From the NCBI GenBank assembly GCA_003139955.1, contig PLHK01000063.1, positions 1 to 34,218 on the forward strand: 34,218 nucleotides of DNA, in the 5' to 3' direction. The stretch's first letter is position 1. Each line of letters opens with the position of its first letter. A program made the translations under genes and the position numbers. Below are positions 236 through 17,406 of the stretch, piece after piece. The notes beneath the pieces are model-generated. The model searched no databases, was not told the origin of the DNA, and was given only the letters and a program-made list of their open reading frames with translations. The stretch is from Limisphaerales bacterium. Its GTDB lineage: Bacteria > Verrucomicrobiota > Verrucomicrobiia > Limisphaerales > UBA11358.

Positions 236-2299
236 TTAAATAATATGATAGACGATGAAGGCGGCAATGTAGGCGACACCGGTCATGTATAAAATTTGAA
301 ACAGTGGCCATTTAATGCTGTTCGTTTCGCGGCGGACGACCACAGACGTGGCAAAGCATTGCGCGGCGAGGATGTAATATACGAGCAGGCTCATGCACGT
401 CGCGGTGCTGAATACCGGAGCGCCATTGCTGCGGGTCGCATGACGCAGTTTGTCGTAAAGTGACGTGCGGTTTTGTTCCGCCGCATTTTCGCCCACGCCA
501 TAAACAACGGCCAGCGTGGAAACAATCACTTCCCGGGCGGCGAATGAACTGATGATGCCGATACCGATCTGCCAGTCAAATCCAAGCGGCTTGATCACCG
601 GCTCGATGACGTGGCCAATTTTACCGGCGAACGAATTTTGCAATGAGCTTTGCGCGGTCAGACGATCCGCCGTGGCGCGAAGCTCGTCCGCCTGTTTTAA
701 ATCGCCGGATTTTTCAAGTTGCGCGGCATGCACCGTCATCGCAACGGAAACGGCGGGCGGCGCGGATTTGGGATAATGTGACAGCGTCCAGAGCAGCAGC
801 GAAATCAGGAGGATGATCGTGCCAGCCTGTTTCACAAAAATTTTTGCGCGGTCGAACGTGTGCAGAAACGCCGTGCGCAGACCGGGCAGACGATACGGCG
901 GAAGTTCAATCACAAGCGGTTTGCTGCCGCCGGGCAAAATGGTGCGTTGAAAAATCCACGCCATGCCGAGCGCGAAAATAATTCCCATCGAATAAGCGCC
1001 GGTGAAAACCAGCGCCGCCTTGAACGGCGATTGCGGAAACAGCAGCGCCGTGATCATCGCATAAATCGGGATGCGCGCCGAGCACGCCATCAGCGGCGCG
1101 ACGAGAATGGTCGCCAGCCGGTCGCGCGGATTTTCCACCACTCGCGCGGACATCACGGCGGGAATCGCGCAGGCGTGCGCGGACAGCAGCGGCACAAACG
1201 CTTTTCCCGGCAGGCCGAACTTACGCATGATCTTGTCCATCACGAACGCGGCGCGTGCGAGGTAGCCGGTGTCTTCGAGCAGCGACAGCGCGAAAAACAA
1301 AATCGCGATCTGCGGCAGGAAAACGAGCACGCCGCCGACGCCGCCAATCACGCCGTTGACCAGCAGGCTTTGCAAATCGCTTTGAGTGACTTGTGTCGCA
1401 ACCCAATTTCCGATGGTCGCAAACCCGTGGTCAATGAGGTTCATCGGAATTTTTGCGGCCCAGAAAATCAAAAAGAAAAACGCGAGCATGACGACCAGAA
1501 ATGCGGCGACACCGGTGACGGGATGAGTCAGGATTTTGTCGAGTTTTTCAGTGCTCTGCGGACGGCGCGCGGCGGCGGCATTCATCACTTTTGCCGAAAT
1601 AGATTCCGTCCACTCGTAGCGCTTTTGATACGGACAGCCGGTGCAGGTCGTGGCGCAGTGCGTTTTGAAATGCGCGGGCGGTTCAATCGCCGCACAATCC
1701 GCGAGCCGTTCCATTTCCCGTCGCAATTCAGCAATGCCTTCGCCGCTGCGCGCCGCAACCGGCACGACGACACGGCCGAGTTCGGCGCGAAGTTTTTCCA
1801 CGTCAATGCGGATGCCTTCGCGCTCGGCCATGTCCATCATGTTCAGAGCGATGATGACGGGGCGCTTCAATTCCAGAACTTCGCCCGCGAGGAAAAGATT
1901 GCGTTCGAGATTCGTCGCGTCCACGACCACCAGCACGGCGTCCGGCATCGCTTGATCCGCGAGCCGTCCACGCACGGCGTCACTCGCCAGCTTTTCTTCC
2001 GGCGCGGAACTTTCCAGACCGTAAAGTCCGGGCAGGTCAACCAAAGTTATTTCTTGCCGGCCGATGGTCACCTTGCCGATTTTTTGCTCGACCGTCGTGC
2101 CGGGAAAATTGGCGGTCTTGGCGCGCAATCCGGTCAGCGCATTGAAAAGGGTTGTTTTGCCCGCGTTTGGATTGCCGACGAGCGCCAGAATGAATTCACG
2201 CTCCGGCAGCGGCGCGATTGAGATTTTTTCGAACCGGCGCTGGCGCGGGGAGTTTGCCGAAAGTGCTACTGCGTCACCGTTTGTAGGGCAATTGTTCAT
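236..2299 (-). CDS. feoB: ferrous iron transporter FeoB
   Basis: FeoB is an inner-membrane Fe(II) permease with an N-terminal GTPase domain. With the start used here the protein has 687 residues. The G1 loop GNPNAGKTT is at residues 42-50, the G2 region NFPGTTV near 64-70, G3 DLPG at 88-91 and G4 NMMD at 153-156. The Gate/core membrane domain follows from about residue 240 to the end, with several long hydrophobic helices. The start ATG at 2297-2299 overlaps the feoA stop (ATGA), which implies translational coupling; an upstream extension to 2521 is only the feoA region read in another frame. A cysteine cluster C-x3-C-x2-C (215, 219, 222) sits between the GTPase region and the first membrane helix, where it could bind metal; this is inference. 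The identification is very secure. Confidence 0.96.
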   Translation of the reverse strand: MNNCPTNGDAVALSANSPRQRRFEKISIAPLPEREFILALVGNPNAGKTTLFNALTGLRAKTANFPGTTVEQKIGKVTIGRQEITLVDLPGLYGLESSAPEEKLASDAVRGRLADQAMPDAVLVVVDATNLERNLFLAGEVLELKRPVIIALNMMDMAEREGIRIDVEKLRAELGRVVVPVAARSGEGIAELRREMERLADCAAIEPPAHFKTHCATTCTGCPYQKRYEWTESISAKVMNAAAARRPQSTEKLDKILTHPVTGVAAFLVVMLAFFFLIFWAAKIPMNLIDHGFATIGNWVATQVTQSDLQSLLVNGVIGGVGGVLVFLPQIAILFFALSLLEDTGYLARAAFVMDKIMRKFGLPGKAFVPLLSAHACAIPAVMSARVVENPRDRLATILVAPLMACSARIPIYAMITALLFPQSPFKAALVFTGAYSMGIIFALGMAWIFQRTILPGGSKPLVIELPPYRLPGLRTAFLHTFDRAKIFVKQAGTIILLISLLLWTLSHYPKSAPPAVSVAMTVHAAQLEKSGDLKQADELRATADRLTAQSSLQNSFAGKIGHVIEPVIKPLGFDWQIGIGIISSFAAREVIVSTLAVVYGVGENAAEQNRTSLYDKLRHATRSNGAPVFSTATCMSLLVYYILAAQCFATSVVVRRETNSIKWPLFQILYMTGVAYIAAFIVYHII

Positions 2300-2580
2300 G
2301 TCAGGACAATTTTTCGCTGCGTGCAATTGTCCGGCGTGCAAACCTCCAGCCAAACGTGCGCGGCGAGCGAGGCCGACAAGCCGATGCGCGAGCCAAAAAT
2401 CTTGACGATGAGCGGGTCTCCGGATTTGACGACCTCGATCTGCCGCCCGACGCAAAGTCCGAGCGATTTGAGGCGCTGGACTTCCTCGCCGTCGGTCTCG
2501 ATGCGGCGGATGATGGCGCACGTTCGCGGCGCAAGTTCGTCGAGCCGCGTCTTGCCAATGTCTGTGGAAGCAATCGTCAT
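2296..2580 (-). CDS. feoA: FeoA, SH3-like partner of FeoB
   Basis: This 94-residue cytoplasmic protein carries the FeoA pattern. It has an N-terminal LDELAPRTCAIIRRI strand region, the segment RLKSLGLCVGRQIEVV, a DPLIVKIFGSRIGLS core, and a final strand AHVWLEVC. FeoA proteins support FeoB-mediated ferrous iron uptake and are typically 75-95 residues long, so the size is normal. The stop codon overlaps the feoB start, so the pair is a two-gene operon. The 113 bases upstream (2581-2693) must hold the promoter; I looked for a Fur-box-like 19-mer there and did not see a convincing one. The C-terminal tail has two cysteines (CTPDNC) that are not part of the usual FeoA core. Confidence 0.93.
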   Translation of the reverse strand: MTIASTDIGKTRLDELAPRTCAIIRRIETDGEEVQRLKSLGLCVGRQIEVVKSGDPLIVKIFGSRIGLSASLAAHVWLEVCTPDNCTQRKIVLT

Positions 2581-2693
2581 ATCACTGACATGACTCTAGG
2601 CGATGAGGCGATTCGCTCTAACCGGATATTGCCATCCATTGAACAGTTTTTGCCTTGTCGTGAGCAGGGGTTTAAAAAAATAAAATTTTCCGA

Positions 2694-4430
2694 TCAATAC
2701 GCTGTGTTCTTGTGATCCACGCCATGGCACGTCAGCGAGCAGACGCCCTTGAACACGCCGGTTGAAGTGTAACTCAATACGCCCAGTGAATTGGGGCTCA
2801 CATACAACGTGTTGAAATTGACTAGGTGCGGCGTGTTGACGACACCATGCGAATCGTGGCAGGTCGTGCAGGCCGTCTTGTCTGTGACGACGTGCGAATT
2901 GTGGAATGGAAAACTGTTGTTGCCCAGCACGACGGAACGGTTGTGGCACTTGTAGCACAGCGCGTAGGCGGACGGATTTTCAGACTGGTAATCCGTCATC
3001 ACGAGGTCGCGTTCCAGCAACGGCCTGAACTCAGATCCGTGAGGCCCCTTCGCACCGCTGCCGCCCACGCCCGGCCCGGTGTCGCTATTGTGGCAGTCGG
3101 TGCAATACATCACGCTGTTCACGGTCCAAGCAGGCGCAATCAAACTCGGCACGCCGGTCGAATTTTTCCCGGCGGCCTCAACCGGATGATAACTCTGGTT
3201 GCCGGTGGCGAATTGCAGCCGTGTGTTCGTCTGCGGAAACTGCCGCATTACTGTTGCCTCGCCCCGGTCCCGGCTGTCGGCGTGGCAGCGGAAACAAACT
3301 TCGTATTCCTTCTGCGCCGGTTTGATGATACCGCCCGCCGCCGTGACGCCGGTGACGCCGGCCATCGCGCCGGAAATGTTCGGGGCGACGGCGATGGATT
3401 TGTTCGCCGCGTGCGGATTGTGGCAGTCGGCGCAGGTGACGTGGCGTTCCGGCGGATTGATCGGGTCTTCGTCCGGACTGTGGGAGTCGCCGTTGAGCGT
3501 GATCGGGTGGACGCTGATTTTTTGAAAATCTGAGGCGACGTCTTTTTGCAGCATGGTGCTGCCGTTATGGCAGACGAAGCAGTTCTGCTCGGCCACGTCG
3601 GATTGCATCAAAAATTTCCGACCGCCAGCGGCGTGATTGACATGGCAGATTTCGCAACCAACCGCCGCCAACGTGGTCGCCCGTGCCACCGGCATTTTCG
3701 CACTTGGCGAAATTTTTGCGTTGCCGGAAATTTTAGCGACCAGCGCCGCCGACACGATGGCCGGCGAGATGGCGTGCGCGGAACCGCTCCACGAATCCGG
3801 CTGATGACAGGCAAGGCAGAGCGCCGAGCCGGTATTGTCCATGACGAGAAAATTTCCGAACTGGTTGTTATGCGGGTCGTGACAGGCGGTGCATTGCAGC
3901 CGGCTTTCCTTGTCCAACTTCACCACGCCGTTTAACTGGCCGGGGTCTTTGATTTCCGAATCACGCGACGCCAGCGCGGAATCGTAGATAAACGAAATCG
4001 GATGATCGGCGGACAAATCCGTGCCCAGATTGTCCGCGCCCGCCGGCATCGTCGTCGTTCCGCCCTGCATGTTGATCGGCAGCGTGCGGCTGCTCACGCT
4101 GCCCAACGCGACCGTGCCATCGTGACAGCTCAAGCAGAGCCGCGAAGAGCCGTTCGGCTGCGGGACAATGACGTTCAGCGCCGTCAACCGCGCGCTGCTG
4201 TAGACGATGTAATTCGTCACGCCGGAAAGCGAATGGTTCCACAGTGGCGTCTCACCGCTCGCGCGATGAACGGTATGGCAAAAAATGCAGAGATCCGCCT
4301 CCGAACTCGCCTTGATCGTGCCGGAGCCATTGACGGACAGGTTGTGAACCGAGGTGACAATGCTCTCCGCACGCGCCGCCACCGCCGCGAACAGGAGCAA
4401 TCCGAAAATATATTTATGAAATGTTTTCAT
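2694..4430 (-). CDS. 12-heme c-type cytochrome, secreted
   Basis: The 578-residue protein starts with a Sec signal peptide (MKTFHKYIFGLLLFAAVAARA, no lipobox). It carries eleven CxxCH motifs (CIFCH, CLSCH, CTACH, CLACH, CEICH, CFVCH, CADCH, CFRCH, CTDCH, CYKCH, CTTCH) and one CxxxCH (CSLTCH) ten residues before the end, hence up to twelve c haems. Many motifs come in pairs followed by DPH, NPH or DSH, as in the doubled-CXXCH cytochromes. It should be periplasmic or, after export, on the cell surface. It is the last gene of the conduit operon; its ATG overlaps the stop of the NHL lipoprotein upstream. Its N-terminal haem pair (CHTVHRA, PLWNHS, CLSCHDGTVA) closely resembles that of the 4-heme protein at 9758-10486. 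It is a candidate terminal or cell-surface electron carrier; the role is inferred from context. Confidence 0.9.
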   Translation of the reverse strand: MKTFHKYIFGLLLFAAVAARAESIVTSVHNLSVNGSGTIKASSEADLCIFCHTVHRASGETPLWNHSLSGVTNYIVYSSARLTALNVIVPQPNGSSRLCLSCHDGTVALGSVSSRTLPINMQGGTTTMPAGADNLGTDLSADHPISFIYDSALASRDSEIKDPGQLNGVVKLDKESRLQCTACHDPHNNQFGNFLVMDNTGSALCLACHQPDSWSGSAHAISPAIVSAALVAKISGNAKISPSAKMPVARATTLAAVGCEICHVNHAAGGRKFLMQSDVAEQNCFVCHNGSTMLQKDVASDFQKISVHPITLNGDSHSPDEDPINPPERHVTCADCHNPHAANKSIAVAPNISGAMAGVTGVTAAGGIIKPAQKEYEVCFRCHADSRDRGEATVMRQFPQTNTRLQFATGNQSYHPVEAAGKNSTGVPSLIAPAWTVNSVMYCTDCHNSDTGPGVGGSGAKGPHGSEFRPLLERDLVMTDYQSENPSAYALCYKCHNRSVVLGNNSFPFHNSHVVTDKTACTTCHDSHGVVNTPHLVNFNTLYVSPNSLGVLSYTSTGVFKGVCSLTCHGVDHKNTAY

Positions 4431-5449
4431 GGGCCGCCTAGGTATTTGAAAATCTGCACGCGATGGTTGTAGCCATCGGCGACGTAAATCGTGTTATCCG
4501 GTGCGATGGCGATGCCGGCCGGCAATCCAAACTCGCCCGGCCCATCGCCGCTCTGGCCGAAGTTCAACAGCAACTGACCGGTCGCGTTGAAAATCTGCAC
4601 GTTGTCAAAAACGGCATCCACGACGTAAAGGTGGCCGAAGGAATCCGCCGCGATGCCTTTGGGTCGTCCAAAATGTCCCGACGTATCGCCGCCGCTGCCG
4701 AACTGCGAAATGAATTTCCCATCGTCGGAAAAAATCTGGATGCGGCAGTTAAGCGAATCGGTAACGAGCCAGTGTCGATCGGCGTCGCTGGCGATGTGGG
4801 TGGGAAAATTGAATTCGCCCGGCGCGGTTCCGCGTTTGCCGAACTTGAAGAGAAATTTTCCCGCGAGGTCAAAAACTGAAACGGCATGCGCCTGCGAATC
4901 CACGACAGCAAGCGAGTTGCCGTTGATGGCCAAGCCAACGGGGCGCACAAGCGAATTAGTGATTTCAAAAGCGGATTTGCCATTCTCACGAAACGCCAGC
5001 ACTTTGCCCAACGCGGAATCGGCGACGTAAAAAATTCCGTTGCGTTTCACGACGGCGACGGGTGAAGCGAAGGCGGTTTTTCCCGACGCCGGGTAGCGCC
5101 GCCATTTCCGGTTCGTGAAATCCAGATAGCAGACGAGGTTCGCGCCGGTGTCAGTGACACAAAGATTTCCCGATTCGTCGAGTGCGAGACCGAAGGGTTT
5201 TTGCAAAGCGAGGTTTTCGCCGTTTTCGCCGGTGAGCCAGTGGCCGAAGCGCGTGACGATGGAGAGGCTCTGGCCGATGTCGCGCGGGCCGTGCATGCTG
5301 CGGACATATGTGATGCGCGGCTGGTCGGGCGGTGCTGGCCAGACCGGCGCGGATTTTTCCGACGTGATCGGCAGCGGCGTGGCGCAAGATGCTAGCAGTC
5401 CCGCGATAAGCACCGTGAGCAGCAAGCCGGCTTGATGTTTAATTTTCAT
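4427..5449 (-). CDS. NHL-repeat beta-propeller lipoprotein (A)
   Basis: This 340-residue protein begins with a lipoprotein signal (lipobox LASC, lipidated Cys22). About six NHL-type blades follow, recognisable by repeats such as KPFGLALDESGNLCVTDTG, RPVGLAINGNSLAVVDS, GRPKGIAADSFGHLYVVDA and GLPAGIAIAPDNTIYVADG, each ending in an RVQIF-like strand. NHL propellers usually act as protein-binding scaffolds and no catalytic motif is visible. The start at 5447-5449 places the signal peptide correctly, one base after the barrel gene's stop; an upstream in-frame extension would bury the signal. It is paralogous to the lipoprotein at 8500-9591: both open with a PAPPDQPRITYV or PAPDAPRLQYL segment. 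NHL proteins often neighbour multihaem cytochromes, so an assembly role at the outer membrane is plausible but unproven. Confidence 0.87.
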   Translation of the reverse strand: MKIKHQAGLLLTVLIAGLLASCATPLPITSEKSAPVWPAPPDQPRITYVRSMHGPRDIGQSLSIVTRFGHWLTGENGENLALQKPFGLALDESGNLCVTDTGANLVCYLDFTNRKWRRYPASGKTAFASPVAVVKRNGIFYVADSALGKVLAFRENGKSAFEITNSLVRPVGLAINGNSLAVVDSQAHAVSVFDLAGKFLFKFGKRGTAPGEFNFPTHIASDADRHWLVTDSLNCRIQIFSDDGKFISQFGSGGDTSGHFGRPKGIAADSFGHLYVVDAVFDNVQIFNATGQLLLNFGQSGDGPGEFGLPAGIAIAPDNTIYVADGYNHRVQIFKYLGGP

Positions 5450-5450
5450 G

Positions 5451-7481
5451 TCAAAAATTTCGCCGGATTCGTAGGGAGACGAAGTTCCGCTGGCGAGTTT
5501 CGAAGGAATAGTCCTGATTTTGTAATTCGTAGTTAAGTCGGACATCGAGCTTGCCAATAAACCAGCTCAAGTAGCTGCGCGCGACAAACAAGTTTACATC
5601 CTGACCGGGCGCATTCTGTATTTCGTAGCCGGATTCGAGATTCCAACTCAAGCTTGAAACGGGACGCCATTCAAAGCGGCCAGTGAATGAATAATAACTG
5701 ACGTTGTCCGACTGGTTCGTGCCGGTGTTGGGGTAGATGTTCCACTGTTGGCGCAGGTCAATCCCCGCCGTGGTGCGCGGGCCGGTCCGCAAGGTGTAGC
5801 CTTGGGAAAAGCTGATGGATTGATAGCTGTAAAGCGTGGAGATCAGGTCGGAATAATTCGCATCGGCGCGGAAGCCCTTCCACGACAAATCCCCGCCGAA
5901 CTGGAGTTCGCTAAGGTCGTTAAGCACGGCTCCGGAGACGGTGGAATGGTTGCCGACATAATTATAGCGTGCATAAATGCCGGCGCGTTGCTGCCAGAAG
6001 TCGAGGCGGACCTGAAACTGGTCGGCGAATACAGTGTAATCGCCGCTCGGGTTCGGCTGTGCGGTGTAATTCACCAGCACGACCGGGTTGTTGGCCAGAT
6101 TGACATGGTTGGGGCCGGTGCTGAAAATCTGAATCTGCCAGGGATTGGAGGTGTTGATCACAACATAGTCGCCGGCGGGAGCCGCGCCCTCGACCAAGGT
6201 GACGGTGACCATGCCGTTGAAATAGGTGACGCTTTGCACGCTCTGGACGTTGGGCTCGTTCAGGTGGAAAATTCCGGTCGGCGGAACGGTGTGCGACTCG
6301 TTGTTGATGAAAATTTCCGAGCCGCTGCTTTCCTGACGCGTAAGGTCTAAATTGGCAGTATTGCCAATTGAAAGATGCCCCCATTCGCCCAGCCGTTTTG
6401 AATAATCCTCGGACAGAGACGTGCCGCCAGATTGCTGGTCGAGTGTGCCGCCGGTGGAATCGTTGTTCGCCAGGCTGCCATGGATGTCAAAGGTTGAAGA
6501 AAGGCTTTCGTAAAGCTGATGCTGCAACCCCGCCCGCGCCATCTGGTAGAGAGAATTAACGCCTTCAGTCGTGTAAACCGCGAAGGAATAATCGTAAAAG
6601 CTCCGCAGGGCCGGAGTGTGTCTCATGTCAAAGCTCAGCGTCCCATTGAGATTGTCCGACGAAACACCCTGAAAATCCTGATAGTTGTCGTAGATTGATG
6701 ACTGTAGACTGTTTTCCCCGAAATGCTCCACGTCCGACAACGTCAGATAATGCGTCGTGGTCGAATCCTGAAATTTATCCGTCCCAGAAGTGTAAGAACT
6801 GTCGTATTGCGAAAACTGGTAGGTCAGATCCGAGTAATTGTCCAGAGCCCGCGTGTTATGCGCCGCCACGCCTGCCGTCGTCTGGTTGGCCGTGGAGTTC
6901 TGGGACAGGCCGGAGCTGTCGGTCAACGACTGCTGGAACGAGCAGATTACCGGCACGGCACCTTCGCGATAGCCGCCGTTTGCGCCCCACGTCTGCACAT
7001 CCTCTGTCGCCGAGTTAAAGAAATCATATTGGAACTCGTCGTGCGTGCGACCGTAATTGAACGTGGTCGCATAAGGTTTGAGCTGGAGCAGCGTGGCGTT
7101 GAAAGTGCCGTCCAGCAGCAGGCTGTTCTGGTGGCTCTGCGCGCCCGTGTTGTCGAACTGCTGTAGGTTGTAACCCAACTCGGGCTGCAGTGAGAAAGTC
7201 AGCAGGTCGGGATGATACAAAAAATAATACCAGCCGAGGCCGACGGACGAAGAGAGATAAAAGCTGTCCGTGTAAGTTGCGCCACCGCCCGTTTTGGAGG
7301 TGAAGGTATCTCGCTCCAACTCGGCGTCCGTCTTGATGTATTCCAACCGGGGCATGGTGAAATCCGGTTCATTTTTGGCCAGATAGATGGACTGGGCCGA
7401 CGTGCGCGCCGCCCCAGCCGCGAGCACTGCCAGGGCGATTGGCAGGGGCAGATACCTCAACTGGGTAGGGCGGCGCAACAT
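5451..7481 (-). CDS. outer-membrane beta-barrel, candidate porin of a porin-cytochrome conduit
   Basis: This 676-residue protein has a signal peptide (cleavage likely near ARTSA-QS), long stretches of alternating hydrophobic and polar residues rich in Tyr, Ser, Thr and Asn, and a C-terminal phenylalanine after RNFVSLRIRR. These are hallmarks of an outer-membrane barrel. The size is close to that of the MtrB/PioB and OmbB type barrels of porin-cytochrome complexes, but I cannot see direct sequence similarity, and the N-terminal CxxC of some MtrB proteins is absent. An internal segment around residues 400-490 (from VTYFNGMVTVTLV to FADQFQVRLDFW) looks like an inserted beta-sandwich. It is packed between an 11-heme lipoprotein gene (3 bases away) and an NHL lipoprotein gene (1 base away). 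The barrel call is firm; the conduit role is inference from the neighbours. Confidence 0.8.
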   Translation of the reverse strand: MLRRPTQLRYLPLPIALAVLAAGAARTSAQSIYLAKNEPDFTMPRLEYIKTDAELERDTFTSKTGGGATYTDSFYLSSSVGLGWYYFLYHPDLLTFSLQPELGYNLQQFDNTGAQSHQNSLLLDGTFNATLLQLKPYATTFNYGRTHDEFQYDFFNSATEDVQTWGANGGYREGAVPVICSFQQSLTDSSGLSQNSTANQTTAGVAAHNTRALDNYSDLTYQFSQYDSSYTSGTDKFQDSTTTHYLTLSDVEHFGENSLQSSIYDNYQDFQGVSSDNLNGTLSFDMRHTPALRSFYDYSFAVYTTEGVNSLYQMARAGLQHQLYESLSSTFDIHGSLANNDSTGGTLDQQSGGTSLSEDYSKRLGEWGHLSIGNTANLDLTRQESSGSEIFINNESHTVPPTGIFHLNEPNVQSVQSVTYFNGMVTVTLVEGAAPAGDYVVINTSNPWQIQIFSTGPNHVNLANNPVVLVNYTAQPNPSGDYTVFADQFQVRLDFWQQRAGIYARYNYVGNHSTVSGAVLNDLSELQFGGDLSWKGFRADANYSDLISTLYSYQSISFSQGYTLRTGPRTTAGIDLRQQWNIYPNTGTNQSDNVSYYSFTGRFEWRPVSSLSWNLESGYEIQNAPGQDVNLFVARSYLSWFIGKLDVRLNYELQNQDYSFETRQRNFVSLRIRRNF

Positions 7482-7484
7482 GGC

Positions 7485-8483
7485 TCATTTGGGTTTGGCC
7501 GACGGTTTCAAAAGATTCATGTCCGTGCCGACGTGCGGATCGTGACAGGTCGTGCAACTTTTGCCCTCAAACCCAGCATGGCCTTTATCCGCCTTCAAAT
7601 CCTTGTCGTCATGGCAGTCGCCGCAGAGTTGGAAAATATTTTTCTTCAGCAATGCACCCTCCGCCGATTGGTGCGGGTCGTGGCAGGAAGTGCAATCCTC
7701 AACGACATCGTGCTGGAACTTCGCCTTCTCCAGAAAATTGTCGTGGCAGACCCAGCAGAGTTCCGGCACGGTCTTTTTTAAGAGATATTTTTTGTTCGAA
7801 GCGTGCGCTTCATGACAGGCGAGGCAATCGCCATCGCCGACTGGTTCGTGAACATCCTTCTTTTTCGTGAGGTCGTCGTGACAATCATCACAGGTGTCCT
7901 TGACGGATTGCTTCAGCAGGCTTTTGAAATTCGTCGCGTGCGGCGTGTGACAATCCAGACAGTCGCCCGACTCGACCGCCTGGTGTTTGAATTTGAAATT
8001 CTCCAGCGGGTCGTCGTGGCACGTCAGGCACAGCGCGTTCCCTTTTTGCAGCAAAAGATTTTTGTTCTCGGATTGATGCGGGTCGTGGCAACTCGCGCAA
8101 TCGCCGCTTTCGACCGGCTGATGCTTTACTTTCTGGCCGGCGAGAAAATCTTTGTGGCAGTTCCAGCAAAGCTCTGGCGGTTGCAATTTTAATCCCATTC
8201 CCGAACTCGATTGGTGACATTCCGCACATTGATGCTGTTGAAACGGCGGATGCACCGTGAAGGTGCCTTCCGGCGGAGGTTTCGGTGGCGAGGCAGCGAC
8301 CTGATTCGGCGTGGAATCAGGAACTGCGACCGGCGCGACGTTCGTCGCGGAACCGAGCGGCGGTACGCCGTCGAAGAAAGTTGTCAGCAGTTTATATCGC
8401 GTCGGCGTGTCGCAGGCTGTGACAAACAAAAGTCCGCCCAGCGCCAAAATCAGCAGCAGCCATTGGACTTTGCGGAATTTCAT
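7485..8483 (-). CDS. 11-heme c-type cytochrome lipoprotein
   Basis: The 332-residue protein has a lipoprotein signal with lipobox VTAC (Cys24), a Pro-rich linker to about residue 75, and then eleven CxxCH motifs: CAECH, CWNCH, CASCH, CLTCH, CLDCH, CDDCH, CLACH, CWVCH, CTSCH, CGDCH and CTTCH. They form a regular repeat of about 45-50 residues, each with a CxxCHDPH or CHTPH-type half and a xLCWxCH or xLCLTCH-type half, the pattern of the doubled-CXXCH family. The protein ends four residues after NLLKPS. A lipid-anchored multihaem cytochrome next to a barrel fits the cytochrome partner that plugs a porin from one face of the outer membrane. The stop is three bases before the barrel start. Haem count and lipidation are read from sequence; the conduit role is inferred. 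Confidence 0.9.
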   Translation of the reverse strand: MKFRKVQWLLLILALGGLLFVTACDTPTRYKLLTTFFDGVPPLGSATNVAPVAVPDSTPNQVAASPPKPPPEGTFTVHPPFQQHQCAECHQSSSGMGLKLQPPELCWNCHKDFLAGQKVKHQPVESGDCASCHDPHQSENKNLLLQKGNALCLTCHDDPLENFKFKHQAVESGDCLDCHTPHATNFKSLLKQSVKDTCDDCHDDLTKKKDVHEPVGDGDCLACHEAHASNKKYLLKKTVPELCWVCHDNFLEKAKFQHDVVEDCTSCHDPHQSAEGALLKKNIFQLCGDCHDDKDLKADKGHAGFEGKSCTTCHDPHVGTDMNLLKPSAKPK

Positions 8484-8499
8484 TTTGCCTCAAGCCGCT

Positions 8500-9591
8500 T
8501 CACTTTTTATGGCCGAAACCGAAAACGCTCACCTTGCGCGACCCGTATTGGCTCGTGACGATGACGAGGTGATCAATCTGAAAATCCGGCGCGGCGTATT
8601 TTTGGAAGAAGGCGACGTTGTCGTAATCCACCACGACTTTCGCGGGCAGATTCAAGCCAGCTTTGCTACCGTCCGGCGCGCCAAACCACATCAACAAACG
8701 GCCAGTGTCATCAAAAACTTGAACGAGTTGTCCGGCGGCATCCACAGCGTAAAGCAAATTATCGCGGTCGACGGCAATGCCTTTCAGCCGTGCGAATTCG
8801 CCGTAGTTGTCGCCATATTTCCCGACCGAGCGAATATAATTTCCGTCCTTGTCAAAAACTTGGATGCGATAAGCGCCGAAATCGCTCACATAAATCCGAC
8901 CGTGGGAATCCAGCGCAAGATTGATCGGCTGAAACAAACGCACGTTGATGTTCGTCGCCTCCGCGCGGCGCGGGATGTCGAACAATGGCGCGCGCGTGGC
9001 TTTGTCAAAAACATGAACGGCGTGCTGCGCAACGTCGGCGACGTAAATCCTGTCTTTGTCCAAAACCACGTCGCGCGGTTTGTTCACGCCCGGCTCGCCG
9101 AGGGTTCCGACAAAATTTTCCTTGTCGTCCACAATGACCACCTGGTCGCGCAAACTATCAGCAACGTAAAGCCAGCCATTGTCGTCCACCGAAAGGTTGA
9201 CCGGCAATTTCAACGTGCCTGGTCCGGTCGGCGCGATGGCAAAAATTCTCCGCTTCTCCAAATCCATCCGCAAAATCAAACCGACTCCGGTGTCGCAGAC
9301 GTAAATATTTTTTGGCGTCGTGGTCGCACCGTAAGGTTTTAGAATCGGCGTATTGGGCGGTGCTTCGCCGGTGATGAAGGTCATCAAAGTGTCGCCGCCA
9401 CTCCCGCGCAAATCTTTTTCCGAACCGAACGAGGTCAGATATTGCAGGCGCGGCGCATCGGGCGCGGGTGGATAAAAAGTGTATTTCGGACCGTTGTCCG
9501 GCGGAGTCGTGGTGCAGCCGACGGCGAGAAAAAAAATCCCCGCGACGGCGAGCACATTCGTGAAACTGAAAAGTTTTTGGTTAATTTTCAT
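8500..9591 (-). CDS. NHL-repeat beta-propeller lipoprotein (B)
   Basis: This 363-residue protein has a lipoprotein signal with lipobox AVGC (Cys26). Repeated blade motifs follow: KPYGATTTPKNIYVCDTG, LPVNLSVDDNGWLYVADS, KPRDVVLDKDRIYVADV, QPINLALDSHGRIYVSDFG and RLKGIAVDRDNLLYAVDA. They predict a six-bladed NHL propeller. The C-terminus has a short basic tail. It is a paralogue of the lipoprotein at 4427-5449, with a similar stretch after the lipid anchor and a shared TGExxxN feature before the first blade. The gene is 16 bases upstream of the 11-heme lipoprotein and 166 bases downstream of the 4-heme gene, with a terminator hairpin in that gap. The function is unknown; a scaffold for the cytochromes is the simplest guess. 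Confidence 0.87.
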   Translation of the reverse strand: MKINQKLFSFTNVLAVAGIFFLAVGCTTTPPDNGPKYTFYPPAPDAPRLQYLTSFGSEKDLRGSGGDTLMTFITGEAPPNTPILKPYGATTTPKNIYVCDTGVGLILRMDLEKRRIFAIAPTGPGTLKLPVNLSVDDNGWLYVADSLRDQVVIVDDKENFVGTLGEPGVNKPRDVVLDKDRIYVADVAQHAVHVFDKATRAPLFDIPRRAEATNINVRLFQPINLALDSHGRIYVSDFGAYRIQVFDKDGNYIRSVGKYGDNYGEFARLKGIAVDRDNLLYAVDAAGQLVQVFDDTGRLLMWFGAPDGSKAGLNLPAKVVVDYDNVAFFQKYAAPDFQIDHLVIVTSQYGSRKVSVFGFGHKK

Positions 9592-9757: not shown

Positions 9758-10486
9758 TTATTTGTTGTGGCAGCCGAGGCAGAGGTTCTGACCGGAGGCA
9801 ATCGTATAAATCCCGCTGGTCGTGGAGGTGCCTAGTGTGCGATGGATGTCATGGCAGCTTGAGCATTCCACGTTTCCGTTCTTCAACATATTGCCGACCG
9901 TGGGCGAGCCAGGCGCATTGAAGGCGGTGCCGGTTCCGTTCAGTTCACCAGCCGGAAGCTGCGCGATGCAGGCGTTGTAGCTCACTCCGATTGGATGCAT
10001 ATGAGTCAAGTCGTCTTGTCCACCATTGACCTCGATCACCACGGCTGAAGACTTGGTGTAGACCGGCGTGCCGCCTTTGACTGCTGTGGTGATGATGCCG
10101 CTGTTCAAGGCGTCCTGGCTGTTGATTGCCACTGTGCCGTCATGGCAGCCGAGACAGGACAAGCTGGACGAACCGAGTTGAACCGTGACGCCGGACGGAA
10201 AGGTTTCGCTCCCGCCTTGGTCGTAGGTTTTGAATGTTTGCGCCGTCGGCGTGTGAATCCAGAGCGGCCCGCGAGTTGGATCCGGGGCATGGTGAATGGT
10301 ATGACATTCGCCGCATACGTTCGTGCTGGAAGTGCTGAGCCAGTTCACCGTGCCGCCGATCCAGTAGTTGGTGGAAGCATAAAAATCGTGTTTGCTTCCA
10401 ATGATGGTGGCCTTGCTTGATTGCGGTATCAACATGATCGCCGCTCCCAACGCCAGTCCGCCGAGTATCAATGATATTTTTTTCAT
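9758..10486 (-). CDS. tetraheme c-type cytochrome, periplasmic
   Basis: The 242-residue protein starts with a Sec signal peptide (cleavage near SSKA-TI) and has four CxxCH motifs: CGECH, CLGCH, CSSCH and a C-terminal CLGCH three residues from the end. The first two match the 12-heme cytochrome's first pair, with CHTIHHA, a PLWIH segment, then CLGCHDGTVA. A conserved HP (MHPIGVSYN) before the third motif has a counterpart (ADHPISFIYD) in the 12-heme protein as well, so the 4-heme protein looks like a one-module version of it. It is the first cytochrome gene of the minus-strand conduit operon, 118 bases downstream of hemA. It is a likely soluble electron shuttle; the family assignment beyond doubled-CXXCH-like is uncertain. 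Confidence 0.9.
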   Translation of the reverse strand: MKKISLILGGLALGAAIMLIPQSSKATIIGSKHDFYASTNYWIGGTVNWLSTSSTNVCGECHTIHHAPDPTRGPLWIHTPTAQTFKTYDQGGSETFPSGVTVQLGSSSLSCLGCHDGTVAINSQDALNSGIITTAVKGGTPVYTKSSAVVIEVNGGQDDLTHMHPIGVSYNACIAQLPAGELNGTGTAFNAPGSPTVGNMLKNGNVECSSCHDIHRTLGTSTTSGIYTIASGQNLCLGCHNK

Positions 10487-10604: not shown

Positions 10605-11681
10605 TCACGCCGTCGCACCGCCCAAAATCCAATCCGGCAGCACCTCGACGTCCGCTTTTTGTTTTTTTGCGAATGGTGAATCGAACCGCTTCATCAATGC
10701 CGCCGCGCGTTCGTCAATTACAGAATTGCAAAATGAAAGTTCCTGTTCGCGATCCTTCGTGTTTTCGCGAACGACCGCTTCAAGGTCGTCAATGTCGTAA
10801 AGAAATACGTTTGGAAGTTTGGCAACGGCGGGATCAATGTCGCGTGGCACCGCGATGTCCACCAGCACCAGCGGACGGTTTTCGCGCGCGGGCAAAATCG
10901 CAGCCACATCTTCGCTCCGCAGAACGATGTCAGGACAGCCCGTCGAGCTGACCAGAATGTCCGCTTCAATCATCGCCGCGTGCGAATCTTCCAGTCGCAC
11001 CGCGCGCCCACCGAATTCCGCCGCCAATTTTTCAGCCCGTTCAAATGAACGGTTGGAAACCAAAACAGTTTTTGCGCCACGTTTGGCCAGATGCTTCACG
11101 CAAGCCTCGCCCATTTTTCCAGCGCCCAAAATCATCACCGTCTTGTCGCTCAAGTCGCGGTCGAAAACTTTTTCCGTCAATTCCACAGCGACGCTGCCGA
11201 CCGAAGTCGCGCCGCGTCCGATGGCGGTGTTTGTGCGGATGTTTTTAGCAACCTGCATGGCCGTCTGGAACAGCCGGTTCATTTTTTTGCCGGTCAATCC
11301 CGCGTCTTTCGCGGCTTGATACGCATTCTTCACCTGGCCGGTGATTTCCGTTTCGCCAAGCACCATCGAGTCAAGTCCGCTGGCCACAGCGAAGAGATGT
11401 TTCGCCGCGTCCGCGCCTTCTTTGATATAAATATGCGGCGTGAAATCAAAATCGCTGTTCGTCAATTCCTGAAACATTCGGATCACGCTTCCGTGAATCC
11501 ACGGTGACACGCCATAAATCTCCACGCGGTTGCAGGTCGAGAGCAGCACGACTTCGGAAAGTTTGCCGCGCAGCTTCAGGCGGCAGCCGCAGCATTGCAG
11601 CCGCGAACGATGCACCGCGATCTTCTCGCGCAACTCCACCGGCGTGGTCTTGTAGCTCAAACCTACGACAAAGATTTTCAT
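10605..11681 (-). CDS. hemA: glutamyl-tRNA reductase HemA
   Basis: HemA reduces glutamyl-tRNA to glutamate-1-semialdehyde, the first committed step of C5-pathway tetrapyrrole synthesis. The N-terminus GLSYKTTPVELREKIA and the active-site segment LSTCNRVEIYGV, with nucleophile Cys50, are diagnostic. The AVASGLDSMVLGETEITGQVK motif follows, and the NADPH-binding loop is GAGKMGE. At 358 residues it is shorter than the roughly 420 of E. coli HemA; most of the C-terminal dimerisation domain is missing, ending soon after the long helix NSVIDERAAALMKRF. It sits on the same strand and 118 bases upstream of the 4-heme cytochrome gene, with no obvious terminator between, so haem synthesis may be co-expressed with the conduit. 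The start ATG lies just beside one arm of a nested inverted repeat (11691-11759). Confidence 0.95.
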   Translation of the reverse strand: MKIFVVGLSYKTTPVELREKIAVHRSRLQCCGCRLKLRGKLSEVVLLSTCNRVEIYGVSPWIHGSVIRMFQELTNSDFDFTPHIYIKEGADAAKHLFAVASGLDSMVLGETEITGQVKNAYQAAKDAGLTGKKMNRLFQTAMQVAKNIRTNTAIGRGATSVGSVAVELTEKVFDRDLSDKTVMILGAGKMGEACVKHLAKRGAKTVLVSNRSFERAEKLAAEFGGRAVRLEDSHAAMIEADILVSSTGCPDIVLRSEDVAAILPARENRPLVLVDIAVPRDIDPAVAKLPNVFLYDIDDLEAVVRENTKDREQELSFCNSVIDERAAALMKRFDSPFAKKQKADVEVLPDWILGGATA

Positions 11682-12394: not shown

Positions 12395-13867
12395 ATGAAC
12401 ACTGAAAAGAAAGGGGAAACGCCGCATCGTTCATCGCTGCTGCGAAACTGGACCAGCCTCATCGGACTCGTCGTCAGCATCTGTGCGCTGTTCTCGTTCT
12501 TCCTGCTGTTCATACTGGATGCGATTTCAAAATCGGCGAATCCCTACGTCGGTATTTTGACGTTTTGCGTTGTGCCGGCATTTTTGATTTCAGGAATCGC
12601 GCTGACCATTTTCGGCGCCTGGCGCGAACGCCGCAAACGGGGAAAAGTTTCTGTTCCGCAAATTCAGATTGACCTCGCAAATCCGCGCGACCGCAGAACG
12701 CTTGTCGCCTTCATCGCGGGCAGTTTTGTTTTCATCATGCTTTCGGCGGTCGGCAGCTACAACGCCTATCACATCACGGAGTCGGTGCAGTTTTGCGGCG
12801 AAACCTGCCACACGGTGATGAAGCCGGAACTCACTACGCACGACCACGGCCCGCACGCACGCGTCGCCTGCGTGGAATGTCACGTCGGCGCGGGCGCGTC
12901 GTGGTATGTGAAATCCAAAATCGCCGGCATGTATCAATTATACGCCGTCGCGTTCAACAAATATCCGCGCCCGATTCCGACGCCGATAAAAAATCTACGT
13001 CCGGCACGCGAAACGTGTGAGCAATGCCATTGGCCGAAGGAATTCGTCGGCAATCTGGATCGCACATTCAATTATTTTCAAGGCGACGTTTCCAATTCGC
13101 CCTATTCCATCCGTCTGTTGCTCAAAGTCGGCTCGGGCAATTCCGGCGATGCGCCCGCCGGTGGAATTCACTGGCACATTTTGAGCGGCAACACGGTCGA
13201 ATACATCGCCACCGACGCCGCGCGCCAGAAAATCCCTTGGGTGCGCCTGACCGACGCGCGAGGTGTCGTCACCATTTTTCACGCGCCAAAATTCACCAAC
13301 GACATTTCCCAATACGAAATCCGTAAAATGGACTGCATGGATTGCCACAACCGCCCGTCGCACCGTTATGTCCCGCCAGATTTCGCGGTGAACCAGGCGC
13401 TGGCGCAAAAGCAGATTGACCCGGCGCTGCCGTGGATCAAGACCAATGCGGTTTATGTTTTAACTCGGCATTATCAAACCGACGACGAGGCGCGCAAAGA
13501 AATTGCCGCCGCGCTTTCCGAAAAATATCCAAATGACGCGCGCATCAAACCCGCGATTGCGACGCTGCAACAAATTTATTCTGACAATTTCTTTCCCGAA
13601 ATGAACGCCGACTGGAGCAAATATCCCGACAACGTCGGGCACATGATCTGGCCCGGCTGCTTCCGCTGTCACGACGGTTTGCACAAAACCGAGGACAAAA
13701 AACTCACCATCAAGGCTGACGATTGCAATTCCTGCCACACGATTCTCGCGCAAGGCAGCGGCAACGAATTGCTGCAACTGACGCCCGGCGGCCGACAATT
13801 TGAGCATCCGGCCGGCGATTTGGGCGGCGACAACAACTGCATAGAATGTCACAACGGTGGGCCGTAA
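12395..13867 (+). CDS. 7-heme NapC/NirT-family inner-membrane cytochrome, ImcH-like
   Basis: The 490-residue protein has three N-terminal membrane helices (about 22-42, 52-74 and 103-125) and then a periplasmic domain with seven haem motifs: CGETCH at 134-139 (a CxxxCH, followed by TVM), CVECH 159-163, CEQCH 208-212, CMDCH, CFRCH, CNSCH and CIECH. The segment from FCGETCH through HARVACVECH, ASWYVKSK and YPRPIPTPIKNLRPARETCEQCHWP is typical of NapC/NirT proteins that oxidise menaquinol and pass electrons to the periplasm. Three helices plus seven haems match the architecture of ImcH of Geobacter, needed there for high-potential extracellular acceptors. NapC and NrfH have four haems and one helix, so a nitrate or nitrite role is less likely, and no such reductase is nearby. 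The family is secure; the specific function is inferred. Confidence 0.9.
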   Translation: MNTEKKGETPHRSSLLRNWTSLIGLVVSICALFSFFLLFILDAISKSANPYVGILTFCVVPAFLISGIALTIFGAWRERRKRGKVSVPQIQIDLANPRDRRTLVAFIAGSFVFIMLSAVGSYNAYHITESVQFCGETCHTVMKPELTTHDHGPHARVACVECHVGAGASWYVKSKIAGMYQLYAVAFNKYPRPIPTPIKNLRPARETCEQCHWPKEFVGNLDRTFNYFQGDVSNSPYSIRLLLKVGSGNSGDAPAGGIHWHILSGNTVEYIATDAARQKIPWVRLTDARGVVTIFHAPKFTNDISQYEIRKMDCMDCHNRPSHRYVPPDFAVNQALAQKQIDPALPWIKTNAVYVLTRHYQTDDEARKEIAAALSEKYPNDARIKPAIATLQQIYSDNFFPEMNADWSKYPDNVGHMIWPGCFRCHDGLHKTEDKKLTIKADDCNSCHTILAQGSGNELLQLTPGGRQFEHPAGDLGGDNNCIECHNGGP

Positions 13868-13870
13868 CGC

Positions 13871-13999
13871 ATGGAGACTGAACTTGATTTCAACACGTCA
13901 AAAAACGCCAAGCAATGCACAACCCTCGGTAAGCGGATTCTTCTGATTTCCCTGATTTTGTTGGCGTATGAAGTTTTGCCGCCGACAAGAAAAGTTTAA
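13871..13999 (+). CDS. possible 42-residue single-helix membrane peptide
   Basis: A short reading frame starts with ATG three bases after the stop of the 7-heme gene and ends inside the start of the 11-heme/b-type gene, overlapping it by 32 bases in another frame. It encodes a polar N-terminus and one hydrophobic segment (RILLISLILLAYEVL). It could be a small subunit or a coupling leader that brings ribosomes to the next start, which has no visible Shine-Dalgarno. There is no homology I recognise, and it may be chance. Confidence 0.3.
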   Translation: METELDFNTSKNAKQCTTLGKRILLISLILLAYEVLPPTRKV

Positions 14000-16118
14000 G
14001 TTCCCGCAGTTGTTTTTGCTGGCGGCTTTTCTTTTCGCGCCTTCGACAACTTTCGCGGCGACGAACGCGGTTGAAAAATTTACCAGCACCGACTGCCTTG
14101 ATTGCCACACCGACCCGACGACCGTCCGCATTGTGAACGGCGAAAAAATTCCGCTCGCCCTTTTTCCGACGAACGGTTTTGCCAATTCCGTCCACAGCCA
14201 GTTGGACTGCATTGACTGCCATGACGGCATCAAAGAATTGGTTCACGATAAAAATGTCCGGCCGCCGAACTGCGGCAGTTGTCATGACAAGGAGGCGAAG
14301 GAATACGCCACGAGCATTCACGGAATGAGCCACGCGATGGGCGCGTCCGGCGCGGCGGAATGCTGGGACTGCCACGGCTCGCACGAGATTTTGCCGGTGA
14401 AAAATCCGACGTCGCCCGTCTATAAATTGAATTTACCAGCGACGTGCGCCAAATGTCACAGCAACACGAATCTCACGAAGGAATACCAGATTGAATTTCC
14501 CGAGGCGGCGAACCAATACATGGACAGCATCCACGGCAACGCGCTGTTGAAAATGGGGCTGATCGTTGCCCCGTCCTGCGACGATTGTCATGGCGTCCAC
14601 AACATCAAGCGCGCGGTGGACCGCGATTCCTCAATCAATCACGCCAACGTCGCCAAAACCTGCGGCAAATGTCACGTTGGCATCGAGCAGACTTACGATA
14701 AAAGTATTCACGGCCAGTTGCTCGCGCAGGGCGACCCGCGCGGCCCGGTGTGCATTGACTGCCACAGCGCGCATGAAATCGCCAACCCCACGAGCAATAA
14801 TTTCAAGGCCATCAGCGATGAACGCTGCGGCAAGTGCCATGCTGACCGGCTGGCAGGATATCGCGACACCTACCACGGCAAGGCAATGATGCTCGGCAAG
14901 GCAAATAACGCCCCAGAAGTCGCCGCGTGCTACGACTGCCACGGCTTTCACGACATTTTGCCGCCATCCAACCCGCAGTCGCACCTTTCGGCGACAAATA
15001 TTTTGGTGACCTGCCAGAAATGTCATCCGAGTGCGACGCAGAAATTCACGCAATATCAGCCGCATGCCAATCCGCTGGACGCGAAAAATTATCCGCTGCT
15101 GCACATGGTGTTCCTCGCGATGACCGGACTGCTCATCGGCACGTTCAGTTTCTTTGGCCTGCACACCCTCGGCTGGGGCGTGCGCGCCATCTATATGTAT
15201 CTCGCCGACACGAAAACTTTCCGCGAGGCGAAGTTCCAGACGCAGGTCGGCGATGAATGGTTCACTCGTTTCGCGCCGTTCGAACGCTTCCTGCATTTTC
15301 TTGTCGTGACCAGTTTCCTCACGCTCGTTGTGACGGGAATGCCGCTCAAATTTTATTACACCGACTGGGCGAAATTTATTTTCTCCGTCATCGGCGGACC
15401 AGAAACCGCGCGGATGCTGCACCGCCTCGGTGCGCTCATCACTTTTCTATATTTCTCGCTGCATTTGGCTTCGCTCGTTGGCAAATCCTGGAAAGGCCGC
15501 GTCAAGTTGCGCAATCCTAAAACCGGCAAATTGGAAATTAAGCGTTTCTACGCGGTCGTCTTCGGCCCCGATTCCATGCTGCCGTCGGTGCAGGACTGGC
15601 GCGATTTCGTAGCGCACAACAAATGGTTTTTTGGCAAAGTCCCGAAGCCGAATTTTGACCGCTGGACGTATTGGGAGAAGTTCGATTACTTCGCCGTGTT
15701 CTGGGGCGTCGCCATCATCGGCGCGTCGGGTCTCATCATGTGGTTCCCGGAATTTTTTACGCGCTTCCTGCCCGGGTGGATCATCAACATCGCCCTCATC
15801 CTGCACTCGGATGAGGCGCTGCTCGCGGCAGGATTCATCTTCAGCATCCATTTTTTCAACACGCATTTTCGTATTGAAAAATTTCCGATGGATACGGTGA
15901 TTTTCTCCGGCCGCATTTCCAAAACGGAAATGCTCCACGAACGCAAACGCTGGTATGACCGCCTCGTGGCGACCGGCAAGCTGGACGATTATCGCGTGCG
16001 CGACGAATGGTTCCGCTGGAAAAACATCGCCAAGACGTTCGGCTACATCGGCTTCATCCTCGGCCTCGTGCTGCTGGCGCTCATCATCTACGCCATGGTC
16101 TCGCGGCTCGTACATTGA
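13968..16118 (+). CDS. 11-heme c-type plus b-type membrane cytochrome, CbcL-like quinol oxidoreductase
   Basis: The 716-residue protein has a signal peptide (to about Ala30), then a periplasmic part with eleven CxxCH motifs between residues 43 and 353 (CLDCH, CIDCH, CGSCH, CWDCH, CAKCH, CDDCH, CGKCH, CIDCH, CGKCH, CYDCH, CQKCH) and repeated SIHG or TYHG histidines that could be distal ligands. A C-terminal b-type domain follows from about 376, with several membrane helices and histidines at H379, H399, H443, H485, H499, H613 and H628 as candidate haem b ligands; ERFLHFLVVTSFLTLVVTG and MLHRLGALITFLYFSLHL are typical of HydC/FdnI-type diheme cytochrome b. This fusion resembles CbcL of Geobacter, which has nine c haems and serves low-potential extracellular acceptors. 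It sits beside an ImcH-like gene. Architecture is read directly; acceptor and potential range are inferred. Confidence 0.9.
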   Translation: MKFCRRQEKFKFPQLFLLAAFLFAPSTTFAATNAVEKFTSTDCLDCHTDPTTVRIVNGEKIPLALFPTNGFANSVHSQLDCIDCHDGIKELVHDKNVRPPNCGSCHDKEAKEYATSIHGMSHAMGASGAAECWDCHGSHEILPVKNPTSPVYKLNLPATCAKCHSNTNLTKEYQIEFPEAANQYMDSIHGNALLKMGLIVAPSCDDCHGVHNIKRAVDRDSSINHANVAKTCGKCHVGIEQTYDKSIHGQLLAQGDPRGPVCIDCHSAHEIANPTSNNFKAISDERCGKCHADRLAGYRDTYHGKAMMLGKANNAPEVAACYDCHGFHDILPPSNPQSHLSATNILVTCQKCHPSATQKFTQYQPHANPLDAKNYPLLHMVFLAMTGLLIGTFSFFGLHTLGWGVRAIYMYLADTKTFREAKFQTQVGDEWFTRFAPFERFLHFLVVTSFLTLVVTGMPLKFYYTDWAKFIFSVIGGPETARMLHRLGALITFLYFSLHLASLVGKSWKGRVKLRNPKTGKLEIKRFYAVVFGPDSMLPSVQDWRDFVAHNKWFFGKVPKPNFDRWTYWEKFDYFAVFWGVAIIGASGLIMWFPEFFTRFLPGWIINIALILHSDEALLAAGFIFSIHFFNTHFRIEKFPMDTVIFSGRISKTEMLHERKRWYDRLVATGKLDDYRVRDEWFRWKNIAKTFGYIGFILGLVLLALIIYAMVSRLVH

Positions 16119-16160
16119 ACATCAATATTCCACGGGTTGCTGGCAAATTTATTTTTGAGG

Positions 16161-16189
16161 TTGTCCAATTTTGTTTATGCGATGACAAT
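16161..16189 (+). promoter_or_regulatory. candidate sigma70 promoter for the lipoprotein-resB-ccsA genes
   Basis: TTGTCC (16161-16166) and GACAAT (16184-16189) are separated by exactly 17 bases and match four of six consensus bases each. The predicted start would lie about 55-60 bases before the lipoprotein ATG. It would give the maturation genes expression separate from the cytochromes. Confidence 0.35.
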
Positions 16190-16254
16190 AAATGTTGATT
16201 CAACGCCAAAGAATGATGTGCGGCGCGGCGCGAGTTCGAGTAATAATTATACAA

Positions 16255-17406
16255 ATGATGAAAACATTTTTTAGCTGCACACTGGCCGCCGCTCTGGCGG
16301 TTTTGTCCACCGGCTGCAACCGCGACGGGGTGAAAGTTTATCACGTTGAGAACGACGACGCGATAACGCCGCCGCCTGCCGCCGCGCCCGCGGCGATGCC
16401 AACCACGATGCCCGCTGGTTTGCCTGTGCCGGATGCCAGCGCTCTGCCACAGTTGAAATATACATTGCCCGACGGCTGGGCGGAAAAAACTTTGACGCAG
16501 ATGCGCGTGGCGAGTTTTGGCGTTTCCGAAAATGAAAAAACGGCCGACATCTGCGTGATTCCGCTCGGCGGCATGGCGGGCGGTGATTTTGCGAACGTCA
16601 ACCGCTGGCGTGGACAAGTCGGATTGTCGCCGCTGGCGGATGACGATCTGCACGCGCTCGCGGAAAAAGTCGAGATTGCCGGGCAGCCCGCCGATTTGTA
16701 TGACATGGCTGGAACAGGGGAGCGGATTGTCGGCGTGATTTTCCATCGCGACGACGGGACGTGGTTTTTCAAGATGACCGGGGATGTGGATTTGGTCGAG
16801 AAGCAAAAGCCGGCGTTCGTGTCATTTCTGAAATCATTTCAATTCGGCGGACTCGCTGCGCCGGCCACGATGGATTTAAGCCAGTTGCCGCCGTCGCATT
16901 CGGCGATTGCGGGACTGGATGCGGGCAGCCAAAACAGTTTGGTTCCAAATCCAAACACGACGGTCATGGGTGGAAATAATTCCGATGGCAGCGGCGAACC
17001 GGCATGGACAATTCCTTCTGACTGGCAGCCTGCACCGCTGTCACAATTTTTGGTCGCAAAATTTTCTATCACGAATGCCGACGGCGCGCAGGCGGCGGTG
17101 AATGTCAGTTCGCTTGCTGGTGACGGCGGGGGTCTGCAACCCAACGTGAACCGCTGGCGCGCGCAACTTAGCCTACCACCCCTCGATGGTGGGTTGGTCG
17201 AAGTTGTTGTCGGGCAGACGAGTTCCATAGATCTTTCGGGAACCGATGTTCGCACTGGCAAGCCTGCACGGCTCATTGGCACCATCGTTCCGCAAAACGG
17301 CCAGACTTGGTTTTACAAATTGATGGGCGACCCGGACCTTGTGGCGCAGCAGAAAGATTCGTTCATAAAATTCGTGCAGTCGGCCAAATACCCCGATGCC
17401 CATTAA
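16255..17406 (+). CDS. lipoprotein with a duplicated domain, function unknown
   Basis: I do not recognise this family. The start is ATG at 16255 or 16258; the latter gives MKTFFSCTLAAALAVLSTGC with a weak lipobox (STGC). A Pro/Ala-rich linker follows, then two copies of a domain of about 120-130 residues. Both contain an N-terminal YTLPDGW or WTIPSDW, a strand (VASFGVS or VAKFSIT), then NVNRWRGQVGLSPL or NVNRWRAQLSLPPL, a GTWFFKMTGDVDLV or QTWFYKLMGDPDLV segment, and a closing helix (FVSFLKSFQF or FIKFVQSAKY). There are no haem motifs. The stop overlaps the resB start by 11 bases, so it is co-translated with cytochrome maturation genes, and it follows the CbcL-like gene. A periplasmic helper for cytochrome assembly or folding is possible, but that is a guess from position. 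Confidence 0.8.
   Translation: MMKTFFSCTLAAALAVLSTGCNRDGVKVYHVENDDAITPPPAAAPAAMPTTMPAGLPVPDASALPQLKYTLPDGWAEKTLTQMRVASFGVSENEKTADICVIPLGGMAGGDFANVNRWRGQVGLSPLADDDLHALAEKVEIAGQPADLYDMAGTGERIVGVIFHRDDGTWFFKMTGDVDLVEKQKPAFVSFLKSFQFGGLAAPATMDLSQLPPSHSAIAGLDAGSQNSLVPNPNTTVMGGNNSDGSGEPAWTIPSDWQPAPLSQFLVAKFSITNADGAQAAVNVSSLAGDGGGLQPNVNRWRAQLSLPPLDGGLVEVVVGQTSSIDLSGTDVRTGKPARLIGTIVPQNGQTWFYKLMGDPDLVAQQKDSFIKFVQSAKYPDAH

Follow-up and report, generated by a model that had tools for sequence, protein, structure and literature searches.

The window analysed here, the whole stretch of 34,218 nucleotides, lies on contig C130 of a Limisphaerales genome (2.79 Mb, 92% complete). It carries a compact gene block that probably encodes an electron conduit across the outer membrane, one that is coupled to an OmcE-type cytochrome filament and serves mainly outward (respiratory) extracellular electron transfer. 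The novelty is less in the barrel of this conduit than in the 12-haem protein, an OmcE-like unit fused, as judged from homology and a predicted structure, to an eight-haem domain, as a candidate nanowire anchor. The OmcE-like parts are the most interesting ones, and they were missed by the sequence-only reading of this DNA, which had described a new-looking module of a barrel flanked by an 11-haem lipoprotein and two NHL propeller lipoproteins.

The genes of the block are read on the minus strand in the order NHL1, 11-haem lipoprotein, barrel, NHL2 and 12-haem cytochrome. They are separated by gaps of 16, 3 and 1 bases, followed by a 4-base overlap into the 12-haem gene, and the positions and packing given in the sequence-only reading are exact to the base. 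A co-directional tetrahaem gene 166 bp upstream, absent from that reading, is also part of the block. For NHL2, the mechanical open reading frame begins with TTG at 5557, and the start at 5449 (MKIKHQAGLL...LLASC) is likelier. The inner-membrane cytochrome and cytochrome maturation genes of the island are divergent from the block (window 12395-20532).

Features of the electron-transfer island (window positions)
Feature	Position	Strand	Properties
12-haem cytochrome	2694-4430	-	578 aa, 11 CXXCH and 1 CX3CH; OmcE-like unit and 8-haem domain
NHL propeller lipoprotein 2	4427-5449	-	340 aa, PF01436 E 7e-28, paralogue of NHL1
Outer-membrane beta-barrel	5451-7481	-	676 aa, signal peptide, C-terminal Phe, 28 long strands predicted
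11-haem MtrA-like lipoprotein	7485-8483	-	332 aa, 11 CXXCH, lipobox VTAC
NHL propeller lipoprotein 1	8500-9591	-	363 aa, lipobox AVGC, PF01436 E 7e-15, in 16/16 related loci
Tetrahaem cytochrome, OmcE-type nanowire subunit homologue	9758-10486	-	4 CXXCH, signal peptide, no lipobox
ImcH-like inner-membrane NapC/NirT cytochrome	12395-13867	+	490 aa, PF03264 E 5e-11
CbcL-like quinol oxidoreductase	13968-16118	+	11 CXXCH, then cytochrome b-type membrane part (weak PF01292, hydropathy)
ResB and CcsA-type cytochrome c maturation genes	17396-20532	+	PF05140, PF01578

The tetrahaem protein matches the OmcE filament subunit over its full length (7tfs_A, E 8.6e-17; 9yuq_N, 2e-13; family profile, E 1.2e-40), and its four CXXCH histidines and the distal histidines 33, 65, 164 and 215 are invariant in 15 relatives. 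The N-terminal tetrahaem unit of the 12-haem protein (about residues 24–214) is also OmcE-like, with a phmmer E-value of 7.6e-28 against 7tfs over residues 11–210 and 8.5e-47 by profile. Consistently, the AlphaFold2 model of the 12-haem protein (74 sequences, pLDDT 88.9) aligned with OmcE in Foldseek at a TM-score of 0.77 by target and an rmsd of 2.9 Å over 204 columns. The C-terminal eight-haem domain, predicted at high confidence, matched nothing in the PDB by Foldseek. Its profile showed weak similarity to the multihaem proteins 6qvm and 6i5b, and Pfam places an MtrC/MtrF-like domain at residues 259–396.

Against MtrA from the solved Mtr complex (6r2q_A), the 11-haem protein gives an E-value of 1e-13, or 7.6e-21 with the family profile, and for TIGR03508 (DmsE/MtrA) it reaches 138 bits, under the cut-off of 192.2. 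Its haem motifs are spaced mostly every 23 residues, and a conserved FFDGVP motif follows the lipid anchor. The residue at lipobox +2 is Asp, which would favour the inner membrane in E. coli and so speaks against the conduit. At the corresponding position of related loci (L018–L033), 5, 11, 13, 15, 17 or 23 haem motifs were counted with much the same spacing, and in the 17-haem version (L032:11636-12164) the diheme unit occurs as a 138-bp DNA tandem repeat with about 75% matches. No DNA-level tandem repeats were found in the 11-haem gene of the window. Because the haem counts change in steps of two at much the same spacing and the repeats are present in L032, the rod seems to have lengthened in this lineage by adding diheme units, and the conduit cytochrome may thus be regarded as a molecular ruler whose length changes between species. 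In a wider set, a multihaem cytochrome is encoded directly before the barrel in 51 of 70 loci, most frequently with five haems (35 loci). Since the 11-haem gene is absent from three related loci (L021, L023 and L027) and the penta-haem gene is absent at that place from six gammaproteobacterial loci, different lineages may house different cytochromes in the barrel. One of these loci, L021, contains a single reading frame (1609-5583) in which an N-terminus resembling DUF6079 is joined to a cytochrome b-type part and to 23 haem motifs; the fusion may be genuine or an artefact of assembly.

Predicted alone with AlphaFold2 (17 sequences), the barrel gave a model with a mean pLDDT of 82.9 and a moderate pTM of 0.63. 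In this model 28 strands of transmembrane length were read from DSSP, of which 17 precede and 11 follow a small beta-domain (residues 390–474). MtrB has 26 strands. For 28 strands the free bore is about 38–45 Å, a value estimated by strand-number geometry rather than measured on the model, so the barrel is not predicted to be too narrow for a cytochrome. Among the 50 PDB matches listed by Foldseek, the best TM-score was to MtrB (6r2q_B, 0.42/0.43). The very large predicted barrel, this structural match and the MtrA match of the 11-haem protein support the conduit proposed by the sequence-only reading.

The statement of that reading that the barrel has no similarity to MtrB is true of direct comparison, whereas profiles do show a remote similarity. 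The barrel matched neither a Pfam nor an NCBIfam family, a sequence search of the PDB gave no match even with a 75-member profile, and none of 17 barrel family members matched PF11854 (MtrB/PioB family). When the 75-sequence profile was compared pairwise (not database-wide) with other families, it reached a probability of 96.6% against Uet-type barrels (n=3, picked by gene order and not including the named Tenderia sequence), 81.4% against MtrB/PioB, a remote similarity, and 1.7% against an LptD control. This comparison, with its MtrB and LptD controls, supersedes an uninformative value of 2.8% from a shallow barrel profile against two Uet-type barrels. As claimed earlier, the MtrB CxxC is missing: the barrel has a single cysteine (C180), and no CxxC was found in 75 relatives. 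A CxxC is present in only 5 of 10 MtrB/PioB proteins sampled, however, so its absence does not discriminate.

The two propellers are indeed paralogous (32% identity, E 1e-39; profile probability 100%). Their pairing, which had been called unusual, is already published for the Uet cluster (PMC10734462) and for a Geoalkalibacter cluster without a recognised barrel (PMC12016550).

The ImcH-like protein has three hydrophobic segments (18–48, 50–77 and 101–122), a CX3CH at 134 and then six CX2CH. This fits the published description of ImcH, with three N-terminal transmembrane helices, an adjoining CX3CH, six CX2CH and about 495–519 aa (PMC6295460); the assignment is by description. As the ImcH-like, CbcL-like, ResB and CcsA-type genes adjoin the conduit, inner-membrane, conduit and cytochrome-maturation functions are brought together in one island. 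The island is flanked by the haem synthesis genes HemA (10605-11681) and HemC (24765-25799) and by FeoB (236-2521), and many related loci also have HemA next to the block. In a genome-wide scan, all doubled-CXXCH matches fell on the contig of the window, within the cytochromes of the island.

The barrel was found in 14 of 40 related genomes, and 16 related loci share the order tetrahaem–NHL1–MtrA-like–barrel–NHL2–12-haem. Nearly all 16 contain the tetrahaem gene, NHL1, the barrel and the 12-haem gene, and a few lack the 11-haem-type gene or NHL2. A single-sequence scan of genome contigs with the barrel found nothing, whereas the 12-haem alignment, scanned against named genomes, returned at least 565 relatives. 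The best 80 of these, taken as loci, span well over ten phyla and include Verrucomicrobiota, Kiritimatiellota, Planctomycetota, Bacteroidota, Ignavibacteria, Calditrichota, KSB1, Nitrospirota, Nitrospinota, Gamma-, Alpha- and Deltaproteobacteria, Zixibacteria, Hydrogenedentes, BRC1 and others. Forty loci had flanks longer than 6 kb on each side, and of these the barrel was present in 40, NHL1 in 37, NHL2 in 39 and the OmcE-like tetrahaem gene in 34. Because the order is kept in the 16 loci of related genomes and in most of the 80 named loci, across many phyla, the block is not a chance arrangement. Named kin of the 12-haem gene of the window belong to Verrucomicrobia subdivision 3/Limisphaerales (a fragment in L075 is 91% identical), and the 12-haem tree places the window among Verrucomicrobia. 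The tree groups mostly by phylum, which suggests that the module may be old.

Some of the loci are elaborated or rearranged. In L025 and L028–L032 a cytochrome of 850–1100 aa with 8–9 haem motifs is inserted between the tetrahaem and NHL1 genes, and the one scanned, in L032 (14422-17067), carries PKD domains. Loci of Bacteroidota, Calditrichota and KSB1 (L055, L058, L061, L062, L063, L070, L072, L076 and others) are rearranged, often with NHL2 and the 12-haem gene first, and often have an extra multihaem gene after the barrel with 9–24 haems, mostly 15.

The kit is thus not new to this genome, and the labels new-looking and unusual are justified only in part: the same kit occurs in many phyla, and a set of two NHL proteins, a barrel and multihaem cytochromes has been published as Uet (PMC10734462). 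Other known systems overlap with it in part. MtrCAB, MtoAB and PioAB likewise encode a large barrel alongside an MtrA-like cytochrome, but the barrel of the window is outside PF11854, and OmcE-like parts and propellers take the place of MtrC; no OmcA/MtrC surface decahaem protein was found in the block at the TIGR03507 cut-off. The OmcE nanowire of Geobacter sulfurreducens (7tfs) shares a full-length homologue in the tetrahaem protein and the predicted fold of the 12-haem N-terminus. The window copy differs in adjoining a barrel and an OmcE-fusion gene, and its filament is putative here. Three further clusters were compared by description. The Geoalkalibacter ferrihydriticus cluster Ga0056053_02426-02431 also has an MtoA-like cytochrome, an OmcE homologue and two NHL proteins, whereas its authors report no mtoB (PMC12016550). 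The Verrucomicrobia clusters of He et al. 2017 come from the same phylum and place a porin beside multihaem cytochromes, but have an 8-haem periplasmic cytochrome, and propellers and an OmcE-like protein are not described for them (PMC5615132). The OetABI conduit of ANME-partner SRB is also linked to putative filament cytochromes, although these are different ones (OmcX, OmcS-like) (PMC10553843).

In the proposed mechanism, ImcH-like and/or CbcL-like cytochromes would carry quinol electrons out of the inner membrane and deliver them to the rod-like 11-haem lipoprotein, seated in the large barrel. The rod would pass them to the 12-haem protein at the cell surface, and its OmcE-like unit would hand them to a filament of the tetrahaem protein. 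At the barrel, the two NHL lipoproteins may serve as clamps or help in assembly. We infer that the products form one complex with this topology. A more tentative proposal, possible but doubtful at present, is that the 12-haem protein both anchors OmcE-type nanowires in the membrane and feeds electrons into them: its C-terminal domain would draw these from the conduit, and its OmcE unit would form the first link of the filament. The outward conduit is supported by the packed co-directional genes, their conserved order, the MtrA match, the 28 strands and the best listed TM-score to MtrB. Further support comes from the OmcE homologies, the adjacent ImcH- and CbcL-like genes, the doubled-CXXCH matches confined to one contig, and a search of the 92% complete genome in which the RuBisCO large subunit was not found.

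The same conduit may run inward, with electrons supplied by Fe(II), a cathode or a partner cell; electron uptake of this kind has been proposed for Uet, which is the closest of the published clusters (PMC12575090, PMC10734462). CbcL/MtoC-type proteins are known in both electron directions (PMC6295460), and haem-copper oxidase genes found in the genome leave room for inward flow and for other uses. Nevertheless, this direction is considered unlikely, given the result of the RuBisCO search and the adjacent ImcH-like gene, whose family has so far been tied only to quinol oxidation, i.e. outward flow (PMC6295460). It is very improbable that the barrel is instead an usher-like export channel that secretes OmcE-like subunits, with the NHL proteins as secretion clamps and no electron conduit. 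Nanowire secretion is indeed unsolved (PMC12307469), some loci have no MtrA-like gene beside the barrel, and by Foldseek E-value ushers rank above MtrB with FimD first. The usher-type assignment was rejected, however, as the TM-score to FimD is only 0.28 versus 0.42 to MtrB. The cytochrome gene directly preceding the barrel in 51 of 70 loci and the profile relationship to MtrB/PioB, not LptD, also argue against export.

It also appears quite improbable that the block is simply the Uet cluster, already described and with nothing further to it. Uet, the undecahaem electron transfer cluster uetABCDEFGHIJ of Tenderiales, Gallionella and Leptothrix, comprises a tetrahaem cytochrome, a PPIase, a barrel, trihaem cytochromes, two NHL proteins and an undecahaem cytochrome (PMC10734462, PMC12575090, PMC13386937). 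Three gammaproteobacterial loci whose genes are arranged as in Uet (L153, L154 and L155) stood in for the named Uet sequences in the comparison; Pfam confirmed the PPIase in L153 and L155. The tetrahaem (UetA), NHL (UetI) and UetJ-like proteins of these loci match the window-family profiles, and both clusters have a UetA-type tetrahaem cytochrome, two NHL proteins, a barrel and a terminal large multihaem cytochrome; going by the profiles, the barrels may be remotely related. The equal haem number invites pairing the 11-haem protein with UetJ, but that pairing was dropped because the profiles match the UetJ-like proteins with the 12-haem gene (242–267 bits in the three Uet-ordered loci). Even there the match spans only about profile positions 8–367 of 580 (roughly the first 60%), and the last gene encodes 11 haems in 830–912 aa in the Uet-ordered loci versus 12 haems in 578 aa in the window. 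The block has no rotamase corresponding to UetB and no trihaem genes corresponding to UetD, E and G, which are present in L153–L155, and has an MtrA-like rod that Uet lacks. As these two defining features, PPIase and trihaems, were tested and are absent, the block is not classed as Uet. Two gammaproteobacterial intermediates (L140 and L146) combine trihaem genes with a window-type barrel and 12-haem gene. As the kit is shared but the block has an MtrA-like rod and lacks the PPIase and trihaems, it is regarded as a sister architecture to Uet.

A 2025 review named the anchoring site of cytochrome nanowires and the entry of electrons into them as a key unanswered question (PMC12307469). The set conserved across phyla consists of a nanowire-type subunit, its haem-domain fusion and a barrel conduit, and because these share one conserved gene set, the question becomes testable by genetics and structure. 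The distribution suggests a wide occurrence of OmcE-type electron transfer among bacteria that are not known for extracellular respiration, such as subdivision 3 Verrucomicrobia. If the proposal is true, the 12-haem fusion, a testable candidate, would explain how OmcE-type wires attach to cells.
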